Assembly: GCA_003223455.1 (NCBI GenBank)
Contig: QHVE01000062.1
Location: forward strand, 1 to 48,249
DNA: 48,249 nucleotides
From: Gemmatimonadota bacterium
GTDB lineage: Bacteria; Gemmatimonadota; Gemmatimonadetes; Gemmatimonadales; Gemmatimonadaceae
Direction of reading: 5' to 3'
Shown here piece by piece: positions 5,909 through 16,785 of this stretch (position 1 is the first letter of the stretch; the number at the start of each line of letters is the position of its first letter). The notes beneath the pieces are model-generated. The model had not been told where the DNA came from. It saw only the letters and a list, made by a program, of their open reading frames with translations, and did not search any database. Position numbers and translations under genes: made by a program.

Positions 5909-7015
5909 TCACACCAGCCCTCCGATCACTTCCCCGCACACCTCCAGGCACTTCGCCAGCCTCTCCGGCGTGTGATCCCCCATGTGCCCGATGCGGAACG
6001 TCGTCTCGCGGTTCTTGCCGTAGCCGTTGCCGATCGTGAAGCCGCGGTCGGCTACCGCTTTCACCAGCGTCGATGCCGCGAAGGCCGGTGGAATCGTGAT
6101 GCTCGTCACGGTGGGCGTCCGGCTCCCCTCGCGCGCGAGGACACCGAACGCGTCGCCGTACGTCGCGCGCAGGCCGTCCACCCACGCCCAGGTCATCTCG
6201 GCCATCCGCCGATGGCGCGCCCAGCGCGCCGCCATTCCCTCGGCGGCGATGGCGGCGAGCTGCAGCTCGGCCGCATAGAAGAGATTGATCGCCGGTGTAT
6301 TGGGCGTCTGGTTCTTCGCGCCGTATGCGTCGAATTCCACCAGGTCGAAGTACAGCCCGCGTCGCGCCGTGCCGCGCGCCGATTCGATGAACGCCGGCGT
6401 CGCCGCGGCGAACGCGAGACCGGGTGGGAGCGCGAGCGCCTTCTGCGATCCGGTGAGCGCGAAGTCGAGCTCCCACTCGTCGAACTCGAGCTGAACGCCG
6501 CCGATCCCCGTCACCGAATCCACGAGGCACACCGCGCCGGCGTCGCGCGCCAGCCGCGTGATGCCACGCACGTCCTGCAGCGCACCGGTCGACGTCTCCG
6601 AGTGCACGACCGTCACGGCCGCGTAGCGCTGCTTCCCCAGCGCATCGCTCACCTGGTCGAGCGTAGCGATCTCGCCGTACGGCACCTCGAGCACATCGCT
6701 CTCGCGGCCGCACGCCTTGACGATCGCCGAAAAACGCGCCGAGAAGGCGCCATTCACGATCGACAGCACGCGCCCCTCGGGCGCGCAGCGCACGGCGGCC
6801 TCCATGAGTCCGGTCGCGGACGAGCTGCTCACGTACACCGGGCGCGTCGTGCGGAAGATCGGCTTGAGCGAGGCCTGGATGCTGGCGAACAGCGCCTCGA
6901 ACGCCTTGCCGCGGTGCGCGATGAGCGGGCGCGTCATCGCGGCGAGCACTTCCGCGCGCACCTCGGTGGGTCCGGGGAAGAAGAAGGTGCCCTGCGTGAG
7001 CAGCGTAGCGGTCAT
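5909..7015 (-). CDS. Class V PLP-dependent aminotransferase, probable phosphoserine/serine-pathway transaminase
   Basis: The product is 368 residues. The fold-type I PLP enzyme of aminotransferase class V (alanine-glyoxylate/serine-pyruvate group) is recognisable from FFPGPTEV at the N-terminus, the SSSSATGLMEAA phosphate-binding turn, VHSETSTG, LVDSVTGIGG with the PLP-contacting Asp, and GSQKALALPPG with the Schiff-base Lys near residue 198. Its ATG overlaps the stop of serB (ATGA), and serA is about 5 kb upstream. Some bacteria and archaea use this subgroup instead of canonical SerC to transaminate 3-phosphohydroxypyruvate. The context makes that the best guess, but glyoxylate or pyruvate transamination is possible. 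Confidence 0.85.
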   Translation of the reverse strand: MTATLLTQGTFFFPGPTEVRAEVLAAMTRPLIAHRGKAFEALFASIQASLKPIFRTTRPVYVSSSSATGLMEAAVRCAPEGRVLSIVNGAFSARFSAIVKACGRESDVLEVPYGEIATLDQVSDALGKQRYAAVTVVHSETSTGALQDVRGITRLARDAGAVCLVDSVTGIGGVQLEFDEWELDFALTGSQKALALPPGLAFAAATPAFIESARGTARRGLYFDLVEFDAYGAKNQTPNTPAINLFYAAELQLAAIAAEGMAARWARHRRMAEMTWAWVDGLRATYGDAFGVLAREGSRTPTVTSITIPPAFAASTLVKAVADRGFTIGNGYGKNRETTFRIGHMGDHTPERLAKCLEVCGEVIGGLV

Positions 7016-7662
7016 GCGAGAACGAGCTCCACGAGCTGGTCGAAGGAGTCCACCACCGCGTCGGCGCCGGCCACGACCGGCTCGCGGCGCACGTAGCCGG
7101 TGAAGGCGATGAAGGCGTCGGCGACGGGACGGATCGCGAGGTCGGTCGCACCGTCGCCCACGGCGACGAGCCGTCGCGGCAGGCCGAGTGCAGCCACGAC
7201 GGAACGCTTTCCTTCGGCCGTCGTCATCGGCGAGTGCGCGTCGTACGTCTCGTACGCGCCCGAGCCGTCCACGAGCACGTTCACCGCATGCACGTCGGTG
7301 TCGTCGATGCCGAGCCGGCGGGCCACGGGGAGGATTGCATTGCGGATCCCGCCGCTCACGAGCACGATGCGGCGGCCGGAGGCGCGCATCCGCGCGATCG
7401 CCGCCGCGGCTCCCGGCGCCAGCGCGCCCTCGTACGCGGTTGCGAGCGCATCGAGATCGTCGCGTGTCGGCCGCACGACCCCGAGTCGCTCACCATACAC
7501 TGCGTCGAGTGCGAGCTCGCCATTCATCGCGCGGTCCGTGAGCTCGGCGATCCGCACCCCCGCCTCCGCGCCGCGGCGCGCGGCGAGCCAGTCGATCCCC
7601 TCGATGCCGCACAGCGTGGAATCGACGTCGAGCACCACGCTGGCGAAGCCCGTCCCGCTCAC
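7012..7662 (-). CDS. serB: Phosphoserine phosphatase-like HAD hydrolase
   Basis: The product is 216 residues from a GTG at 7660-7662; the longer open frame upstream has no HAD features. HAD motif I is DVDSTLCGIEG, with the nucleophile and acid/base aspartates. Motif II is VLVSGG, the conserved Lys lies in AEGKRSVV, and motif III is VAVGDGATDLA. This arrangement, with a small helical cap after motif I, is that of SerB, which removes phosphate from O-phosphoserine in the last step of serine synthesis. The gene overlaps the following aminotransferase gene by 4 nt (ATGA), implying translational coupling, and lies in the same neighbourhood as serA. A perfect hairpin (7686-7708) stands 24 nt upstream. 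Confidence 0.88.
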   Translation of the reverse strand: MSGTGFASVVLDVDSTLCGIEGIDWLAARRGAEAGVRIAELTDRAMNGELALDAVYGERLGVVRPTRDDLDALATAYEGALAPGAAAAIARMRASGRRIVLVSGGIRNAILPVARRLGIDDTDVHAVNVLVDGSGAYETYDAHSPMTTAEGKRSVVAALGLPRRLVAVGDGATDLAIRPVADAFIAFTGYVRREPVVAGADAVVDSFDQLVELVLA

Positions 7663-7848: not shown

Positions 7849-9348
7849 ATGTTCGGCGTCATGCGTCTCCGCGTCGCGATGCCTCTCCTCGGCAGCCTGC
7901 TTTTCCGAACCGCGCTGCTCGACGCGCAGAGGCCGGCCGTCGGCGCGCTCCAGGGCACGCTGCGCGAGCGGATCGATTCGCGCTCGGTGCGTGCCGCCTC
8001 GGTCTCTCTGGTGCGCGCCGAATCGGAGTCGAGCCACACGGTCAACGTGCGTCCCGACGCGCATGGTCGGTATCGGGTGGATTCGCTTCCCACCGGTCGG
8101 TATCTCATCCAGATCAGCAGCCCGATCCTCGACTCGCTGGATCTGTCGCTGCCTCCCGAGCGCATCGAGATCGCCGACGGCACCGTGTCGCGCTTCGACG
8201 CTAACCTTCCGGCCGGCGCGACGCTGCGCGCCGCGGTGTGCCCTGGGTTGCGCCTTGGGGAAGGAAAGGTCGCCGTGGCCGGACACGCGCTGGACGCCGA
8301 CACTGACCGGCCGTTGCCCGGCGCGGACGTCGTCGCGACGTGGATGCACATCTACATCGACAGGACCACGCTCAAGCCGGTATCGCAGCGACGTGGCGCG
8401 TCGGTAAGGACGGGACCGAACGGCGAGTATCGGATGTGCGGACTGCCAGCCGACGCCATGCTGTCGCTGCAGCTGCAGCACGGTGGACGGGCGAGCACGA
8501 TCGTGCGCGCCGCCGTGTCCGACGACGAGGGCGCCGCCGTACGCGACCTCTCGCTCAGCCCACGCACGTCAGCGACCACCGCAGCGCTCGACTCCGTGGC
8601 GCGCCTGCTGGTGGCCGACAGTCGCGACGCGACGCGCGCGGAGCTCCAGCTCGCGGGCACGGCAAGCCTCGCGGGTGAAGTGCGGTCGCTCACCGGCGAG
8701 CCCGTGGCCGATGCGGAGGTGCGGGTCCGCGATGCACGGTCGTCGACGACCACCGACAGCGCGGGACGGTACACGCTCAGCGCGCTGCCGTCGGGTACGC
8801 AGACGCTGATCGTCCGGCGTCTGGGATATCCCATCGCCGAAGTTCCCGTCGAGCTGCGCGCGGACCGAAGCGTGAGCCGCGACGTGCTGCTGCCCCGGAG
8901 CGTGGTGCTGGACTCGGTGCATGTGGTCGGAGAGCGCACATCGTACCCCGAGTTCGAGCGGAACCGGCGCACGCACGCCTTCGGCCAGTTCCTGACCGCC
9001 GAACAGATCGACGAGCTTCGCGCGCCGGAGGCGGCCGACCTCTTCATCAACGTGTTCGGCTTCAGCGCGCTCGGGCGCGGGTCGCAGGCACGCGTCGTCT
9101 CCAACACGGCGCTGGTGCGTCACCGGGAGTGCGCGAACGCCAACATCGTGATCAACGGCGCGGAAGGACAGTCGATCAACCAGGTGCTGCCCAATCAGAT
9201 CGGCGGCATCGAGGCCTATTCGGACGAAGCGTTCGTCCCCGCCCGGTTCGAGGGACGCGCCCAGTGCGGCGTGATCGTGATCTGGCTGCGGAAGGAGCGG
9301 TCGCGGCCGATGCCGCCGACGGGGCTCAGCGGGAACGGCTACCCCTGA
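7849..9348 (+). CDS. Secreted regulatory-like/plug protein, paralogue 1
   Basis: The product is 499 residues (an alternative ATG at 7861 gives 495). A signal peptide ends at LLDAQ. Three carboxypeptidase-regulatory-like beta-sandwich repeats follow: residues ~32-125 (GALQGTL to DGTVSRFDANL), ~125-240 (AVCPGL, VAGHALDADTDRPLPGADV, YRMCGLP) and ~268-355 (GEVRSLTGEPVADAEVRV, LPSGTQTLIVRRLGYP). The C-terminal ~140 residues (YPEFERNRR, FGQFLTAEQI, ANIVING, GGIEAY, CGVIVIWLRK) resemble the plug domain of TonB-dependent receptors, but no barrel follows. Four cysteines align with those in the three paralogues at 14-18 kb. It is probably periplasmic or outer-membrane associated; the function is unknown. 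Confidence 0.8.
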   Translation: MFGVMRLRVAMPLLGSLLFRTALLDAQRPAVGALQGTLRERIDSRSVRAASVSLVRAESESSHTVNVRPDAHGRYRVDSLPTGRYLIQISSPILDSLDLSLPPERIEIADGTVSRFDANLPAGATLRAAVCPGLRLGEGKVAVAGHALDADTDRPLPGADVVATWMHIYIDRTTLKPVSQRRGASVRTGPNGEYRMCGLPADAMLSLQLQHGGRASTIVRAAVSDDEGAAVRDLSLSPRTSATTAALDSVARLLVADSRDATRAELQLAGTASLAGEVRSLTGEPVADAEVRVRDARSSTTTDSAGRYTLSALPSGTQTLIVRRLGYPIAEVPVELRADRSVSRDVLLPRSVVLDSVHVVGERTSYPEFERNRRTHAFGQFLTAEQIDELRAPEAADLFINVFGFSALGRGSQARVVSNTALVRHRECANANIVINGAEGQSINQVLPNQIGGIEAYSDEAFVPARFEGRAQCGVIVIWLRKERSRPMPPTGLSGNGYP

Positions 9349-9354
9349 CGCGCG

Positions 9355-10743
9355 TCAGAGCACGTTGCCCGGTGCGAGGATTCCCGCCGGGTCGAGCTCG
9401 CGCTTCACCGCCTGCATCGTGCGCACCTGCAGCGGCGACATCTGCAGCGGCAGCCACTTTCGCTTGATCTTCCCGATCCCGTGCTCGGCGGCCACGGTGC
9501 CCCCCATCGCGATCACCTCGCGCAGCGTCTGCTCCACGACGGCCTCGATGCGCCGCAGCTCGTCCGCGTCGTGGGCGATGAAGTTCTGGTGTGGATGGCC
9601 GTTGCCGGCGTGGCCGTACGTCACCGCCTGCTCGATGCCGGCGATGTCGGCGAAGGTGCGAGCCTTGGCGAGCATCTCGCCCAGCCTCGCGTACGGCACC
9701 GCCCAGTCGGTGGACACCTTGCGGCCACCGTGCACTCGGCGCGCCGAGCCGCGCTCGTTCATCGTCGCAGGCACGGCGTGCCGCACCCGCCTCGCTTCGC
9801 GCAGCGAGGCTTCACCTTCGTAGACGTTCACGTCATCGGCGAGGGCGCCCTGCTGCACGGCCAGCTCGAGCCACTCGTCGAGCGCCGCCGGTGTGCCCGT
9901 CGGGGGCACCTCCTCGACGTAGACGAACGCGTCGGCGTCCGTCGCCCAGCCGGGCGTGGACTCGGCCTCGCGCGCGATCCCCAGCGCGCGGCGGTCGAAG
10001 AACTCGAGGCAGCGCGGGTGGACGCGTCGACTCTCGCGCGCCGAGACGATGAAGGCGAGCGCGTCCTGCTCCGTGGCGAAGGGAATGGCGAGCCCGATCA
10101 CCTGCTCCGGCAGCGGGAGCAGCCCGAGCTCGACCTCCACGACGACGCCCAGCGTGCCTTCGCTGCCGATGAACCAGTCCACGGGATCGTGCGCCAGCGC
10201 GTAGCCGACGGTGTTCTTCTCCAGCGCGGGCCGGCGCAGCTCGACGATCGATCCGTCCGCGAGCGCGACCTTGAGCGCGCGTACATGCGGCCGCGTCGCG
10301 CCGTACCGGAAGGTGCGCGCGCCCGAGGCATTGCACGCGACCGCGCCGCCGAGCGTGCACTCCTCCTCGCTCGTCGGATCGGGAGCGAGCAGGAGCCCGT
10401 GCGCCGCGCACGCGCGCTTGAGCTCTCCGACGAACACGCCCGGCTCGGCGCGCACCGTGCGCGACCTGGGGTCGAGGTCGAGGACGCGATCCATTCCGCG
10501 CAGCGACAGCACGATCCCGGTGTCGCTGATCGAGGCGCCAGTGGTGCTCGTCTGCCCACCCGCGCAGGTGACGGCGGTTCCGTTCGCGCTCGATTCGGCG
10601 AGCAGCGCCGCGACCTCGGCCGCCGACGTCGGTCGCGCGACGCCGTCCGGAACCATCAGCAGCCCCGAGGCGTCTGCCGCATATGCGCGGCGGACCCCCT
10701 CGTCACGCTCGATCCGCGACGCGGCGAGCTGAGGGGGGATCAT
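9355..10743 (-). CDS. FAD-linked 2-hydroxyacid dehydrogenase (GlcD / D-2-hydroxyglutarate dehydrogenase type)
   Basis: The product is 462 residues from an ATG at 10743. The N-terminal PCMH-type FAD domain shows CAGGQTSTTGAS, TVRAEPGV, APDPTSEEECTLGGAVACNA and GSEGTLGVV. The C-terminal FAD-oxidase domain ends with the family motif AAEHGIGKIKRKWL and DPAGILAPGNVL, with the metal-binding-type YGHAGNGHPH before it. The start overlaps the serA stop by one base (TGATG). Members oxidise glycolate, D-lactate or D-2-hydroxyglutarate and pass electrons to ETF or quinone. Coupling to serA suggests D-2-hydroxyglutarate, the by-product of many SerA enzymes; that substrate is an inference from position. 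Confidence 0.85.
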   Translation of the reverse strand: MIPPQLAASRIERDEGVRRAYAADASGLLMVPDGVARPTSAAEVAALLAESSANGTAVTCAGGQTSTTGASISDTGIVLSLRGMDRVLDLDPRSRTVRAEPGVFVGELKRACAAHGLLLAPDPTSEEECTLGGAVACNASGARTFRYGATRPHVRALKVALADGSIVELRRPALEKNTVGYALAHDPVDWFIGSEGTLGVVVEVELGLLPLPEQVIGLAIPFATEQDALAFIVSARESRRVHPRCLEFFDRRALGIAREAESTPGWATDADAFVYVEEVPPTGTPAALDEWLELAVQQGALADDVNVYEGEASLREARRVRHAVPATMNERGSARRVHGGRKVSTDWAVPYARLGEMLAKARTFADIAGIEQAVTYGHAGNGHPHQNFIAHDADELRRIEAVVEQTLREVIAMGGTVAAEHGIGKIKRKWLPLQMSPLQVRTMQAVKRELDPAGILAPGNVL

Positions 10744-12353
10744 CAGGCGCCGCGAAAGTGCACGACCGTCGCCGTGCAGACGTCCTGCAATCCGAGCAGC
10801 TCGTCGCGCACGGTGCTCGGCACCGTGCCATCCACACTGATCGCCGCGAGCGCCTCGCCCCCCTGCGCGAGCCGTGCCTGGTGATACTCGGCGATGTTGA
10901 CGCCGCGGTCGCCGAGCAACGTGCCGACGCGCCCGATCACGCCGGGCACGTCGTTGTTCGTGAGGATGATGAGCGCCTCGCGCGGTGCGACGTCGATGTG
11001 GAAGCCGCCGATGCGGATGAGCCGCGCGGGCGCGCCGTAGGGCGCCACGGCGGCGACCGCCATCAGCTGCACGCCGCCGCTCACGCTGACGAGCATCGCC
11101 GCCGGATGGCCCAGCGCGTCGGACTCCGTCGTGGACAGCTCGATGCCGCGCGCTTCGGCGATCGAGCGCGCGTTGATCAGGTTGATCCGCTCCACGTCGA
11201 TCGTCCCCTCGAGCACACCCGCCGCCGCCGAGGCGAGCAGGGCGGGCGCCGCACCGGCGAGCTCCGGGCCGACGCGCAGCGACAGCCGCTGGGCCATCTT
11301 CACGCCACGGTCCGCCAGGATGGTGCGCGCGACGACTGCCGCCTTGCGCACGACCTGCAGCGCGTGCTGGAGCTCCTTCCAGTCGCCGGTGCCGGCGCCG
11401 GCGACGTTGATGGAGCGCGACAGCTCGCCGTGCAGCAGCGCGTCGCGCACCCCTTCGCAGGCGTCGACGGCGACGTTGCGCTGCGCCTCGGCCGTGGAGG
11501 CGCCGAGGTGCGGCGTGAGCAGCGTGTGCGGGGCCGTGCGCAGCGGATGGTCGGGGGTGAGCGGCTCCTTGGTGAAGGCGTCGACGATCGCGCCGGCCAG
11601 CTTGCCGCTCTCCAGCGCCTGCAGCAGCGCCGTTTCCTCGACGATGCCGCCACGCGCGAGGTTCATCACGATCGCGCCGCTCTTCATGCGCGCCAGCTCG
11701 CGCTTGCCGATCATGCCGAGCGTCTCGTCGGTGAGTGGGGTGTGCACCGTCAGCACGTCCGCTGCGTCGACGGCCTCGTCGAGCGAGGCGAGACGGCGCA
11801 CGCGCAGCGCGCGGAACCGCTCGTCGCTCACGTACGGATCGTAGCCGGCGACGTCCATGCCGAAGGCATGCGCCCGCGTCGCCACTTCGCTGCCGATTCG
11901 CCCCACGCCGACGATGACGAGCGTGCGACCCTTGATCTCGCTGCCGAGCAGCTTCGACCGGTCCCACCGCCCGTCGCGCATCGAGCTCGCGGCGTGTGGC
12001 ACGTGGCGCAGCAGCCCGATGAGCGTGGCGAAGAACAGCTCGGCCACCGCGATCGTGTTCCCCGCCGGTGCGTTGATGACGGCGATCCCCATCGCCGTCG
12101 CCGTATCGATCGCGATGTTGTCGACGCCCACACCGGCGCGACCAACGACTCGCAGCCGATTGGCCCGGCGCAGCAGCGCCTCGTTCACACGCGTTGCACT
12201 GCGTCCGATGAACGCGTCGTACTCTCCGATCCTCTCCTGGAGCTCGGCGGGCGGCAGCGTCGGAACGACGTCCACCTGGAAGGTGGGCTCGGCCTGCAGC
12301 AGGGCCACACCATCGGCGTCGATTTCGTCGGTGACGAGGATACGGTAGGTCAT
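10743..12353 (-). CDS. serA: D-3-phosphoglycerate dehydrogenase, long form
   Basis: The product is 536 residues from the ATG at 12353 (MTYRILVTDEIDADG); the extra 21 codons upstream lack family features. It has the substrate domain, then the NAD-binding fold with GVGRIG at ~149-154, the catalytic Arg in NLARGG, the Glu in FTKEPLTPDHPL and the His in TPHLGAS. A middle regulatory (allosteric substrate-binding) domain follows, and a C-terminal ACT domain (ILTNNDVPGVIGRVG, near 465-510) that usually senses serine. It oxidises 3-phosphoglycerate to 3-phosphohydroxypyruvate, the first step of serine synthesis. Its stop is fused to the start of the FAD-linked dehydrogenase gene (TGATG), so the two are co-expressed. 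Confidence 0.95.
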   Translation of the reverse strand: MTYRILVTDEIDADGVALLQAEPTFQVDVVPTLPPAELQERIGEYDAFIGRSATRVNEALLRRANRLRVVGRAGVGVDNIAIDTATAMGIAVINAPAGNTIAVAELFFATLIGLLRHVPHAASSMRDGRWDRSKLLGSEIKGRTLVIVGVGRIGSEVATRAHAFGMDVAGYDPYVSDERFRALRVRRLASLDEAVDAADVLTVHTPLTDETLGMIGKRELARMKSGAIVMNLARGGIVEETALLQALESGKLAGAIVDAFTKEPLTPDHPLRTAPHTLLTPHLGASTAEAQRNVAVDACEGVRDALLHGELSRSINVAGAGTGDWKELQHALQVVRKAAVVARTILADRGVKMAQRLSLRVGPELAGAAPALLASAAAGVLEGTIDVERINLINARSIAEARGIELSTTESDALGHPAAMLVSVSGGVQLMAVAAVAPYGAPARLIRIGGFHIDVAPREALIILTNNDVPGVIGRVGTLLGDRGVNIAEYHQARLAQGGEALAAISVDGTVPSTVRDELLGLQDVCTATVVHFRGA

Positions 12354-12920: not shown

Positions 12921-13835
12921 CTACTCGATCAGCATCGTCCCCTCGCACACGAGCACCGTCGCGCCCCCGACGCGCACGCCCGTCACCTCGCCGCGCGAGA
13001 CGTCGGCCTCGATGTCGAGGATGCTTGGCCGCTTCATCTCGAAGCCCTGCTCGAGTCGCCAGCGCAGCGTGCCGTCCTCGCGCGAGTCGCGCCGGGCGAG
13101 ATAGCCGGCCATCGCCGCGGCGGCGCTCCCCGTCGCCGGGTCCTCGGCGATGCCGAATCCGGGTGCGTACATGCGGCCGTGGAGGTCGGAGCCGGCGCGC
13201 TCCCCCTCGCGGGCGAAGACGAAGATCTCGGGCGCCCACGTGCCGGCGAGGCCACGCTCCCACGCGTCGGCGTTGATGCGCGACCGGGCGACGGCGCCTC
13301 GGTCGCGCACGGGGACGAACAGGTAGGGCACGCCACACGTCCAGCCACGCGGTGCCCAGTCCCCGTCGAGCAGGTCGTCCGGCTCGAGGCTCAACGCGCG
13401 CGCCAGCGCCTCGCGCGGCGGAGCAACGGGCCCCTCCTCGGGAAGCTTGGCGACCGCGAGCGCGCAGTACGCAGGCTGCCCGTTCTCGGCGCGGATCGTC
13501 ACCGGGACCGGCCCGACCAGCTCCTCGAGGACGATCCGCGTGTGTTCGCCGGCCAGCGGGATGTCGCCGATCGCGGCGAGCACGTGCGCCGTGCCGACGG
13601 TCGGGTGGCCGGCGAAGGGCAACTCGGTGCCCGGAGTGAAGATCCGGACGCGCCGCGTGTGCGCCTGATCCGACGGCGGGTAGACGAACGTCGTCTCCGA
13701 GTAGTTGAACTCACGCGCGACGTCCTGGAGCCGATGCTCGGGGATTCCGCTGGCATTCGGGAACACCGCGAGCTGATTGCCGCCGAACGGCTGATCGGTG
13801 AACACGTCGGCGGTGAGGTACCGGAAGCGTGACAT
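12921..13835 (-). CDS. PhzF-family isomerase/epimerase
   Basis: The product is 304 residues from the ATG at 13835. The family signature is complete: an N-terminal FTDQPFGGNQLAVF, the catalytic glutamate in NYSETTFV, TPGTELPFAGHPTVGTAH in the first lobe, and GIAEDPATGSAAAAMAGYL in the second lobe of the diaminopimelate-epimerase-like fold. PhzF itself isomerises a phenazine precursor, but most chromosomal family members act on unknown small molecules and no phenazine genes are nearby. The gene stands alone, convergent with the small membrane protein gene. Confidence 0.9.
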   Translation of the reverse strand: MSRFRYLTADVFTDQPFGGNQLAVFPNASGIPEHRLQDVAREFNYSETTFVYPPSDQAHTRRVRIFTPGTELPFAGHPTVGTAHVLAAIGDIPLAGEHTRIVLEELVGPVPVTIRAENGQPAYCALAVAKLPEEGPVAPPREALARALSLEPDDLLDGDWAPRGWTCGVPYLFVPVRDRGAVARSRINADAWERGLAGTWAPEIFVFAREGERAGSDLHGRMYAPGFGIAEDPATGSAAAAMAGYLARRDSREDGTLRWRLEQGFEMKRPSILDIEADVSRGEVTGVRVGGATVLVCEGTMLIE

Positions 13836-13998
13836 GCGCGGAAATGTAGCGGGCCGGAGTGAGGATGGGTCCAAAGGTCTGCTTGCCCCGCCATGGACGG
13901 CTCCACATGTTCGCGGGGGACGAGTCACCTGCCGGCGGAGCGAGCTTTGCACGTCGGCAGACACCGTATTTCCCGACCTCCACCATCGCGTCGGTCAC
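13836..13998. other. Divergent intergenic region upstream of paralogue cluster
   Basis: This is 163 nt between the PhzF-family gene and the signal-peptide start of paralogue 2. It should contain the promoter for the three-gene tandem. I see a possible -35 TTTGCA at about 13950 but no convincing -10, and no clear repeat. Confidence 0.3.
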
Positions 13999-15341
13999 AT
14001 GCGCACGTACATCGCGCTCGCACTCATCGCCTGCGTGGGCTCGCCACTCGCGGCGCAGCGCACATCGGGTCGCATCGAGGGGCAGATCAGGCGAACGCCA
14101 TGGTCACCGCGACGCGGCTCGACGTGGCACGCGAGACGACGTTCGTGGCGACGACCGACGGGCGAGGCCGCTTCCGGTTCGACTCGCTCGAGACCGGCCG
14201 GTACGCGATGCGCTTCGTGAGCCAGCTGCTCGACTCGCTCCAGTTCGGCGGCAGCGCACCGATCGTCGACGTGGCTCCCGAGCGCGCGGCGCGTGTCGAT
14301 CTCGCCGTCCCCTCGGGGACGACCCTGCGCGCCATGGCGTGTCCAGGCGTGGCGTTCCCCGATGGCACGGGCGCGCTGCTCGGCCTCGTCACCGACGCCG
14401 ACACTGACCGCCCGCTCGCGGGCGCCCACGTCGTCGTGGCGTGGAGCGACCTCGCCATGGACTCGGCGAAGGCCATCATCGCGAACGACCGCACGGCGAA
14501 GGTCACGGTGGATGCGTCCGGGCAGTACCGGATGTGCGGGCTCCCCACGAACGACGCGCTCTTCCTGCAGGTGCAGCATCAAGGGCGCAACGGTGCGGTG
14601 TTGAAGATGAAGATCGCCGACGCGGCCGGTGTGCTCGTGCGCGACGTCTCCTTCAGCGCGTCGGGCGCCGTGCGGCCCGCCACCGACAGCGCGAGCACCG
14701 ACGTCGTGCCGTCTGGTACGGCGAAACTGTATGGAGTCGTGCGCGACGGTGACGGGAAGCCGGTGTCCGGCGCGCAGGTCCGTGTGCTGGGCACCGCCGC
14801 AAGCGCTCGCGCCGACGATCACGGCGCGTTCGACTTCTCCGGTCTACCCGCGGGCACCCAGGAGGTCGAGGTACGCCAGTTCGGCTTCGGCGTCGCGCGC
14901 GGCCCCGTCGAGCTGCGCAACGACAAGCGCGCACGGCTCGACGTCCACCTCGAGAAGGCGGCGACGCTCGCCGGCCTCAAGGTCGTCGCCACGCGGCCGC
15001 GATATCCGGAGTTCGAGCAGCGCCGGCGCGACGCGATCGGCGGCCGGTTTCTCGACGAGGCGCAGATCAAGAAGATGCATTTCCTCTCCGTCGTCGACTA
15101 CGTGAACCTCCTGCCGGGCTACCGCGCCATCCATCAGCGCTATGGTGACATGCGCGTCACGAACATGCGCGATCCCGACTGCCAACCGGCGATGCTCGTG
15201 AACGATCTGCCGGTCGCGAGCCTCATGGAGCTGCCCCCGCCGGAGATGCTCGGCGCAGTGGAGGTGTACGTGACCACCGCTGGCGCACCGCCCAACCACC
15301 GCTCGCATTGCGGCACGATCGTGTTCTGGTCGAGGCGGTGA
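13999..15341 (+). pseudogene. Secreted regulatory-like/plug protein, paralogue 2, frameshifted near its N-terminus
   Basis: From 13999 one frame encodes a good signal peptide (MRTYIALALIACVGSPLAAQ) and the first strand (GRIEGQI). The rest of the protein, from ANAMVTATRL to the stop at 15341, is in another frame. Aligned with paralogues 1, 3 and 4, about ten residues are missing at the junction (14083-14100), so a short gap not divisible by three has broken the gene. Downstream all expected parts remain: ARETTFVA, MACPGV, DADTDRPLAGAHV, YRMCGLPT, the third repeat, YPEFEQRRR, and the plug-like tail ending CGTIVFWSRR. An ATG at 14100 could give a 413-residue product without a signal peptide. It may be a recent pseudogene or a sequence error. 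Confidence 0.75.
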
Positions 15342-15345
15342 GCCC

Positions 15346-16785
15346 ATGTCCCGCACGTCGCGACGTCCGTGGCGCTCACCGCGCGCTTCGCACCTGTCGC
15401 GACGCGCGCGCGCCGTCGTAGCGCTCGCGTCGCTCGCCGGCTCTTCGACGGTTGCGAGCGCCCAGGCCGTCGGCCGACTGGAAGGCATCGTCACCGACAG
15501 CCTCCGGTCCGCGTCGCCGCTCGCCGGCGCGCAGGTCAGCGCCACCCGCCTCGGCTCCGCGCGCGAAACGACGTTCGTCGCCGTAACCGACGCGCGCGGA
15601 CGGTTCGCGTTCCAGCAGCTCGATGCGGGCGAGTATGCCGTCGGGTTCGCGAATCCGCTCCTCGATTCGCTCGAGTTCGGCGGACCGGCGCGCCGCGTCG
15701 TGGTGCCCGGCGCCGGCGTCGCGCGCGCCGAGCTCGCCGTGCCGTCGGGCAGGACGCTGCGGTCGCTCGCCTGTCCGGGGACGCAGCTCGCCAGGGGAAC
15801 GGGGGCGCTCCTCGGCAGCGTCACCGATGCGGACACCGACGCGCCGCTGGCCGGCGCTCAGGTCGCCGCGGTCTGGACCGAGCTCACCTTCGACAAGGGT
15901 ATCGTTCAGGCGATGACCCTCGAGCACTCCGGGGGCGCCATTACCGACTCGCTCGGCCAGTACCGCCTGTGCGGCGTGCCGACCGACAGTTGGCTCCTGG
16001 TGCAGGTGCAGCACGCGGACCGCATCGGCTCGGCATTCCAGCTGTCGATCGCCGACGCGTCGGGGGTGCACGTGCGTCACCTCTCGTTCAGTCGCGAGGG
16101 TGCGCGCGAGCGGACGGCGCTCGACTCGGCGGTGCGCGACACCACACGCGTGCTTCCTCCCCTCGCCGGCACGGCGACGGTCGCCGGCATCGTGCGTGGG
16201 AGTGGCGGCCGTCCCGTGGCCAACGCGCAGGTGCGCATCGTCGGCGCCGAGCCGATCACCCGCACGGACGCGAACGGCTGGTTCTCGCTCACGGGACTTC
16301 CATCCGGCACCCACGAGATCGAGGTGCGCGAGCTCGGCTTCCCGGTGCAACGCCAGCCCGTCGATCTGCGACGCGGCCGAACGGTGCGGCAGGAGATCCA
16401 GCTCGACGGTGCACAGACGCTCGAAGGCATGCGTACCGTCGCCGAGCGGACGCCGTACGAGCGCTTCGAGACCAATCGTCGATTGAGCCTCACGGGGTTG
16501 TTCCTGACGGAGGAGCAGATCGAGAAGCGCCACGCGCAGAATACGAGCGAGCTGTTCTCGTCCATGTCCGCGTTCCGCATCGTCGGCGACGGTCCCGACG
16601 CCCGCATCGTCAACAAGCGCGGCGAGTGCCGCCCGAACGTCGTCGTGGACTACGCGCAGTTCCAGGAGATCAACTCGATCCCACCGTCGCTCATCGCTGG
16701 AATCGAAGCCTATCCGACGACGAACGGTGCGCCCGCGGAGTTCACGAACCTCTGCGGCGTGATCCGGATCTGGGTGAAGCGGTGA
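15346..16785 (+). CDS. Secreted regulatory-like/plug protein, paralogue 3
   Basis: The product is 479 residues, starting 4 nt after paralogue 2 ends. An arginine-rich n-region (to ~residue 22) and a hydrophobic core ending ASAQ form the signal peptide. Domains in order: regulatory-like repeat 1 (GRLEGIV to QQLDAGEYAVGF, ~42-130), repeat 2 (SLACPGTQ, GALLGSVTDADTDAPLAGAQ, YRLCGVPTD, ~138-245), repeat 3 (GIVRGSGGRPVANAQVRI, LPSGTHEIEVRELGFP, ~275-355), then the plug-like tail with FLTEEQIEK, CRPNVVVDY, GIEAYPTTNGAPAEF and CGVIRIWVKR. No barrel follows. The four family cysteines are all present. It is probably co-transcribed and translationally linked with paralogue 4. Function unknown. Confidence 0.82.
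   Translation: MSRTSRRPWRSPRASHLSRRARAVVALASLAGSSTVASAQAVGRLEGIVTDSLRSASPLAGAQVSATRLGSARETTFVAVTDARGRFAFQQLDAGEYAVGFANPLLDSLEFGGPARRVVVPGAGVARAELAVPSGRTLRSLACPGTQLARGTGALLGSVTDADTDAPLAGAQVAAVWTELTFDKGIVQAMTLEHSGGAITDSLGQYRLCGVPTDSWLLVQVQHADRIGSAFQLSIADASGVHVRHLSFSREGARERTALDSAVRDTTRVLPPLAGTATVAGIVRGSGGRPVANAQVRIVGAEPITRTDANGWFSLTGLPSGTHEIEVRELGFPVQRQPVDLRRGRTVRQEIQLDGAQTLEGMRTVAERTPYERFETNRRLSLTGLFLTEEQIEKRHAQNTSELFSSMSAFRIVGDGPDARIVNKRGECRPNVVVDYAQFQEINSIPPSLIAGIEAYPTTNGAPAEFTNLCGVIRIWVKR

Follow-up and report, generated by a model that had tools for sequence, protein, structure and literature searches.

A flavin-linked D-2-hydroxyacid dehydrogenase gene with a changed substrate pocket is conserved beside serA in serine operons of Gemmatimonadota

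The first step of phosphorylated serine synthesis, the oxidation of 3-phosphoglycerate by SerA, is unfavourable, and the solutions that bacteria have for it are known mainly from proteobacteria. In the window analysed here, a stretch of 48,249 nucleotides from a Gemmatimonadota bacterium (GenBank assembly GCA_003223455.1, contig QHVE01000062.1), serA runs directly into a gene for a flavin adenine dinucleotide (FAD)-linked D-2-hydroxyacid dehydrogenase, P0001, of an uncharacterised subfamily. What does a flavoenzyme of another subfamily, with a changed substrate pocket, do inside a serine operon of this lineage? We find that SerA and the FAD gene form the most constant part of the operon, more constant than the FAD gene and the aminotransferase gene, and we argue, tentatively, that the flavoenzyme reoxidises a D-2-hydroxyacid made by SerA.

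Both genes lie on the minus strand. The serA gene (10743..12353) encodes a long D-3-phosphoglycerate dehydrogenase (PGDH) of 536 amino acids with an ACT domain. The PGDH model TIGR01327 matches residues 4-532, that is the full length, with 511.8 bits, above its cut-off of 454; the ACT model scores 29.2 bits, over its cut-off, and the PGDH_inter model for the intervening domain scores 21.7 bits, below its cut-off of 27. Over the full length, the nearest solved structures are the PGDH chains 3ddn and 1ygy. The FAD gene (9355..10743) encodes 462 amino acids with the Pfam domains FAD_binding_4 and FAD-oxidase_C. Its start codon, ATG at 10743-10741, shares one base with the SerA stop codon, TGA at 10745-10743, as can be read directly from the sequence TGATG at 10741..10745. 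A preliminary description of this DNA had reported the same one-base junction between serA and an FAD-linked 2-hydroxyacid dehydrogenase gene, and its coordinates proved exact; it had also named conservation of the pair across the phylum as the point to check.

We examined this conservation in two overlapping sets of loci (for example, locus L209 is the contig of genome G057). The first set comprised 200 genomes of the phylum, in which a P0001 ortholog was defined by an E value of at most 1e-60 and one locus per genome was checked. The second comprised the best 80 of 121 named relatives, two of which have no upstream DNA, leaving 78 usable loci. Orthologs of P0001 were found in only 51 of the 200 genomes. 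Among these carriers, SerA lies directly upstream, on the same strand and within 400 bp, in 47 of 51, and it is directly upstream in 73 of the 78 named loci, so that the pair is indeed conserved wherever the gene is carried, with few exceptions. The order SerA-FAD-SerB-aminotransferase is present in 36 carriers and also in the window, where an inserted gene breaks it (37/51 altogether). Therefore, the FAD gene belongs inside the phosphorylated serine operon. All four genes are also present in 62 of the 80 named loci. Another four carriers have SerA-FAD-SerB and no aminotransferase match, and six have SerA-FAD alone, one of them (G142) with only 436 bp of downstream DNA. In the other five (G037, G041, G069, G166, and G167), with 3.9 kb or more of sequence available downstream, SerA-FAD is kept and neither SerB nor the aminotransferase gene adjoins it.

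The adjacency of the two genes is conserved; the TGATG form of their junction is not. Taking the nearest in-frame start codon, a choice that biases junctions towards short gaps, the two genes overlap in 39 of 73 junctions and lie within 30 bp in 68. The overlaps are of 4 bp in 33 cases, of 1 bp in five (one of which is TGATG), and of 17 bp in one. With respect to distribution, 77 of the best 80 named relatives carry titles that contain Gemmatimon-, one is a Roseisolibacter, and two are named only "bacterium". In a plasmid collection, all 886 matching records fell under 60% identity; among the best 40 of these, the top match had 35.1% identity across 99% of the query, and short partial matches reached up to 43.5%. 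The subfamily is thus seen here in Gemmatimonadota, and its confinement to the phylum is not proven, since the named relatives are the best 80 of 121.

A biochemical precedent for such a pair exists. Pseudomonas SerA is reported to reduce 2-ketoglutarate to D-2-hydroxyglutarate and in this way to surmount the barrier to oxidising 3-phosphoglycerate, with D2HGDH, ETF, and ETFQO returning the D-2-hydroxyglutarate (PMC9504171); the same SerA/D2HGDH coupling is reported for Pseudomonas in both PMC9504171 and PMC8651671. Human PHGDH likewise reduces 2-ketoglutarate (PMC9504171), and bacterial d2hgdh often has serA as a neighbour (PMC8651671).

Because the FAD gene keeps SerA as its neighbour more constantly than it keeps the aminotransferase, we favour the recycling of a D-2-hydroxyacid made by SerA. 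Specifically, we give close to, and slightly below, an even chance to the explanation that the FAD enzyme reoxidises such a product, perhaps D-2-hydroxyglutarate or D-malate, and thereby pulls serine synthesis forward. SerA would oxidise 3-phosphoglycerate with nicotinamide adenine dinucleotide (NAD+), which is uphill, and would probably also reduce a 2-oxoacid, 2-oxoglutarate or oxaloacetate, to the D-2-hydroxyacid. Reduction of either 2-oxoacid by the SerA of the window is assumed, that of 2-oxoglutarate by analogy with human PHGDH and others and that of oxaloacetate from general background on SerA enzymes. The 2-oxoglutarate could come from the aminotransferase, if glutamate is the amino donor. 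The FAD enzyme would then reoxidise the hydroxyacid through the Zn/His/Glu/Arg site of its superfamily and pass the electrons to ETF and on to the quinone pool, so that NAD+ would be regenerated at SerA and the pathway drawn forward. The sequences show the gene order and its conservation, genes for every step of the pathway, the catalytic residues, and an ETF gene; we infer the side activity of SerA, the identity of the hydroxyacid, the amino donor, and the electron acceptor alike.

The gene content of the phylum bears on this proposal in two ways. First, canonical D2HGDH is nearly absent: at E values up to 1e-50, the protein of structure 3pm9 has matches in 12 of the 200 genomes, with 48% identity in one and 31-38% in the other 11, and the host genome is not among the 12. 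Therefore, if SerA makes D-2-hydroxyglutarate, its reoxidation would call for a different enzyme. Second, all 51 carriers encode ETF alpha, a component of the acceptor known for bacterial D2HGDH. Since it is also present in 193 of the 200 genomes, this co-occurrence has no discriminating power.

To which branch of the superfamily does the FAD protein belong? Its best profile is GlcD (TIGR00387), at 232 bits against a cut-off of 567.9. In a tree of 33 rows, the FAD family stands on its own branch (100/100), while D2HGDH, GlcD, and LDHD each form one separate group (100/100); two long YdiJ-like rows (92/93) join the FAD family weakly (72/52). Judged by sequence, the protein thus falls in a clade of its own outside the D2HGDH, GlcD, and LDHD rows. 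In a tree of 23 rows, joining the FAD family and D2HGDH in one clade was not rejected (approximately unbiased test, p-AU 0.15) and joining it with LDHD was rejected (p-AU 0.011), both groupings having been picked after the first tree was seen. The nearest solved relatives of the FAD protein are D-lactate dehydrogenases and LctD. Its AlphaFold model (mean predicted local distance difference test score 82.3) has about equal likeness to LctD, LDHD, 3pm9, and human D2HGDH, with VIA Z values of 37.9 for mLDHD 8jdb, 36.4 for 9qit, 35.2 for human D2HGDH, and 34.8 for LctD, where differences within 1 count as tied.

The host genome encodes a second GlcD/D2HGDH-type protein, which clusters with E. coli GlcD at 100/100, adjoins GlcE/GlcF-like genes, and scores 461 bits on TIGR00387. 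Canonical GlcD was ruled out as the identity of the FAD protein by its neighbours, which are SerA and SerB and not GlcE/GlcF, by the tree, and, more cautiously, by the bit score, since the GlcD-like protein encoded elsewhere in the genome falls short of the cut-off as well.

The catalytic site is nevertheless the one expected of the superfamily. According to PMC7801405, human D2HGDH binds Zn through His434, His441, and Glu475, its catalytic site also includes Arg386 and His476, and these metal and catalytic residues are common to D-LDHs and GlcD. The same source describes Lys401 as binding the C5 (distal) carboxylate of D-2-hydroxyglutarate, as strictly conserved in orthologues, and as essential, in that its mutation abolished activity, and it assigns Tyr432 and Asn443 to the same carboxylate (PMC7801405). 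We matched positions to human D2HGDH by alignment and counted residues in the 80 named loci. The residues aligned to the metal and catalytic positions (His378, His385, Glu420, His421, Arg321, and Glu247) are present in 80 of 80. Two positions at the distal carboxylate are also retained: Tyr432 corresponds to Tyr/Phe376 (Tyr in 71, Phe in nine; 3pm9 also has Phe) and Asn443 to Asn387 (Asn in 75, Asp in four, His in one).

Several findings weigh against the proposed recycling, beginning with the rest of the pocket. At the position of Lys401, which depends on the alignment, the family has Ser in 75, Ala in three, and Gly in two of the 80 loci, and the position of Thr390 is Pro in all 80. The family also lies outside the clade of human D2HGDH and 3pm9 in the 33-row tree. 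The replacement of Lys401 and the separate clade together ruled out a simple D2HGDH ortholog. Since the catalytic site is kept and residues for the distal carboxylate are changed, D-2-hydroxyacid dehydrogenase chemistry is to be expected from the sequence, and the standard specificity of D2HGDH is not necessarily so. As such, the preliminary description was right to place the protein in the GlcD/D2HGDH superfamily of FAD-linked 2-hydroxyacid dehydrogenases, and by clade, Lys401, and Thr390 it is not D2HGDH, nor is it the GlcD of the genome. Its further suggestion that the hydroxyglutarate cycle is hard-wired into one operon is partly supported: a conserved SerA/FAD unit, mostly within the serine operon, stands, and a D2HGDH identity by sequence does not, with Lys401 and Thr390 gone in 80 of 80.

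Other enzymes could also take the proposed role: the host genome encodes a YdiJ-like protein of 574 amino acids, a second D2HGDH candidate, and six of the 51 carriers also hold a weak match to 3pm9 (32-38%). Achromobacter SerA is reported to be able to make D-2-hydroxyglutarate in vitro and not to do so in vivo (PMC8651671), so that SerA beside such an FAD enzyme does not alone prove a cycle. Seven genomes (G032, G047, G052, G093, G094, G112, and G141) hold SerA (53-62% identity), SerB, and the aminotransferase together and no FAD ortholog, five in the order SerA-SerB-aminotransferase and two in the order SerB-aminotransferase-SerA; therefore, the FAD gene is dispensable to the pathway. That the pathway can do without it would also fit a mere shared transcription unit in which SerA and the FAD enzyme are biochemically unconnected. 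We regard such a coincidence as very improbable, given that the pairing in 47 of 51 genomes spans the family groups f1, f2, f4, and f5, mostly with overlapping genes or short gaps. Finally, four of the 51 carriers (G044, G057, G146, and G188) have no adjoining SerA. In the genomes of G044, G057, and G188, no PGDH-type SerA was found, and their nearest SerA homologs score 291-319 bits on a glyoxylate reductase model against 223-234 on the PGDH model, all below cut-off; in G146, a PGDH-type fragment lies where a contig ends. In the SerA-less carriers, the FAD genes remain open reading frames and keep the residues typical of the family, so that a function independent of SerA is conceivable.

An alternative function would start from D-3-phosphoglycerate, which is also a D-2-hydroxyacid. 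The FAD enzyme might oxidise it directly to 3-phosphohydroxypyruvate, an NAD-independent and practically irreversible entry into serine synthesis beside SerA; we consider this rather improbable. The pocket offers some encouragement, in that basic residues characteristic of the family gather about the predicted pocket strand. Arg341 is present in 80 of 80 named loci (with Ile once in a separate alignment of 28 rows), Lys/Arg342, two residues before the Lys401 position, in 80 of 80, Arg318 in 79 of 80 (a position that is aromatic in 13 of 14 reference rows), and His383 in 80 of 80, where it replaces the Asn of GDGN. The motif HxGDGNxH thus becomes HxGNGHPH, with Asn381 in 77 of 80; Trp347 is a further family-specific residue, and the family has about eight residues more than human D2HGDH ahead of the pocket-lining strand. 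In the model, Lys342 and Ser344 are predicted to lie on one strand (339-344), so that a larger charged group could fit. In its stronger form, the idea posits a flavin-dependent 3-phosphoglycerate dehydrogenase: one branch of the GlcD/D2HGDH superfamily, encountered in this analysis only in Gemmatimonadota, whose pocket would have been remodelled by basic residues to accept a phosphorylated D-2-hydroxyacid. This would if anything be a shade less probable.

The same idea could draw on G057 and G188, where SerA is absent and the FAD gene stands directly before the aminotransferase gene. Against it, SerA is kept adjacent in 47 of 51 carriers, which would be needless for an enzyme that replaces it, and G044, G057, and G188 have zero matches to the SerB of the window, so that the pathway looks lost in them and not rerouted. 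Moreover, G063 and G082, of the same genus as G057, keep SerB with no other operon gene in the stretches read (the aminotransferase was not sought genome-wide), which indicates that leftovers of a decaying operon occur; their loci and that of G057 have SRPBCC-like, MerR-like, and acetyltransferase-like neighbours in common, as named by eye. Because the SerB match is missing and G063 and G082 keep a lone SerB, the loci of the G057/G188 type resemble what is left of an operon in decay, and this suggestion of piecemeal loss weakened their FAD and aminotransferase genes as proof of a SerA-free pathway.

Apparent piecemeal loss of the phosphorylated serine pathway was observed in several genomes of the window's family, namely at L073 (G057), L091 (G188), L238 (G063), L239 (G082), and L242-L244 (G004, G128, and G072), where what is retained is the FAD and aminotransferase genes, a SerB gene, or just an ortholog of the aminotransferase. 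Separately, a class V aminotransferase gene (32-34% identity) adjoins a 2-hydroxyacid dehydrogenase gene at L240, L241, and L246 (G004, G128, and G188, without type I SerA); the dehydrogenase of G188 scores highest on glyoxylate reductase, and such pairs are possibly another route to serine or glycine.

The remaining operon genes of the window also lie on the minus strand. A SerB-like HAD phosphatase is encoded at 7012..7659 (the stretch translated; its upper end is approximate, the start codon being unsettled). It scores 88.7 bits on TIGR00338 against a cut-off of 144.15, and its best solved relatives are phosphoserine phosphatases, so that these relatives and the context suggest a SerB-like product. 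With a 4 bp overlap, a class V aminotransferase follows at 5909..7015. The SerC model TIGR01364 has zero matches in the host genome (96% complete) at E values up to 10, and by context this aminotransferase is the candidate phosphoserine transaminase of the cluster. The only match in the host genome to the window's SerB is that protein itself, and the genome has a single close SerA, with two more matches that are weak. As TIGR01364 is missing and there is one SerB match and one close SerA, the cluster is the sole phosphorylated serine pathway found in the host genome. A second SerA copy, 59-60% identical to that of the window, was observed at L111 (G026 contig C27) with no other operon gene in 11 kb.

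The aminotransferase is the basis of a third alternative, in which the FAD enzyme would oxidise glycolate or D-glycerate to glyoxylate or hydroxypyruvate, and the aminotransferase would convert these to glycine or serine, either feeding in from the side or salvaging dephosphorylated intermediates. The solved structures nearest to the aminotransferase are those of serine, alanine-glyoxylate, and serine-glyoxylate aminotransferases, the FAD protein itself has GlcD as its top profile and D-lactate dehydrogenases and LctD as nearest structures, and in G057 and G188 the two genes adjoin in the absence of SerA. We nevertheless hold this to be unlikely, if worth keeping in view, considering that a separate GlcD with GlcE/GlcF-like neighbours is encoded elsewhere in the host genome and that SerA-FAD outlasts the aminotransferase in nine genomes (with at least 3.9 kb downstream), compared with only two in which FAD-aminotransferase persists without SerA.

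The gene inserted between the FAD gene and serB, at 7849..9348 on the plus strand, matches Pfam CarboxypepD_reg and is taken to lie outside the function of the operon. In G195 and G025, the FAD gene, serB, and the aminotransferase gene are consecutive without it. The nearest relative, L146, whose FAD protein and SerA are 89-90% identical to those of the window, has a 49% identical CarboxypepD_reg gene in the same place and orientation. Similar plus-strand proteins are encoded around the operon at 7849-9348 (by Pfam) and at 13893-15341 and 15346-16785 (compared by eye), a local family expansion. Upstream of serA, a PhzF-family gene (12921-13964, minus strand) is also present in the close relatives L097, L098, and L146.

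If the FAD enzyme recycles D-2-hydroxyglutarate, SerA coupling in this lineage uses a different enzyme; if it acts on another substrate, it represents a flavin-linked step of serine synthesis that we did not find in the literature searched. Were that substrate 3-phosphoglycerate, there would be a second, respiratory-chain-linked first step beside SerA. The neighbourhood of serA and d2hgdh is already in print; the presence of this subfamily in a serine operon appears new, as it was not found in the literature searched. No paper on the subfamily or on serine synthesis in Gemmatimonas was found among the titles and abstract openings listed, many subscription papers being out of reach.

How, then, does the enzyme compare with known systems? 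With human D2HGDH and that of Pseudomonas (PA0317), it shares the fold, the FAD domain, the metal triad, and the catalytic Arg and His, and, with the bacterial SerA-coupled systems, the serA neighbour and the presence of an ETF gene. It differs from them in the replaced Lys401 and Thr390, the roughly eight extra residues, HxGNGHPH, its own clade, and its usual place in an operon with SerB and an aminotransferase. It has the same domain order as GlcD, its top profile match, but remains far from the cut-off (232 versus 568 bits), lacks GlcE/GlcF neighbours, and is separate in the tree. LDHD and LctD are its closest solved structures, and the family has Ser-Thr-Asp at the Lys401 site as in 8jdc; in contrast to them, Tyr/Phe376 and Asn387 are as in D2HGDH, and an LDHD clade is rejected. 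With YdiJ-type D2HGDH (NF049975), it shares distant homology of the FAD domain, whereas that model has 1018 positions compared with 462 amino acids, and the protein scores 117 of the 1350 bits of its cut-off.

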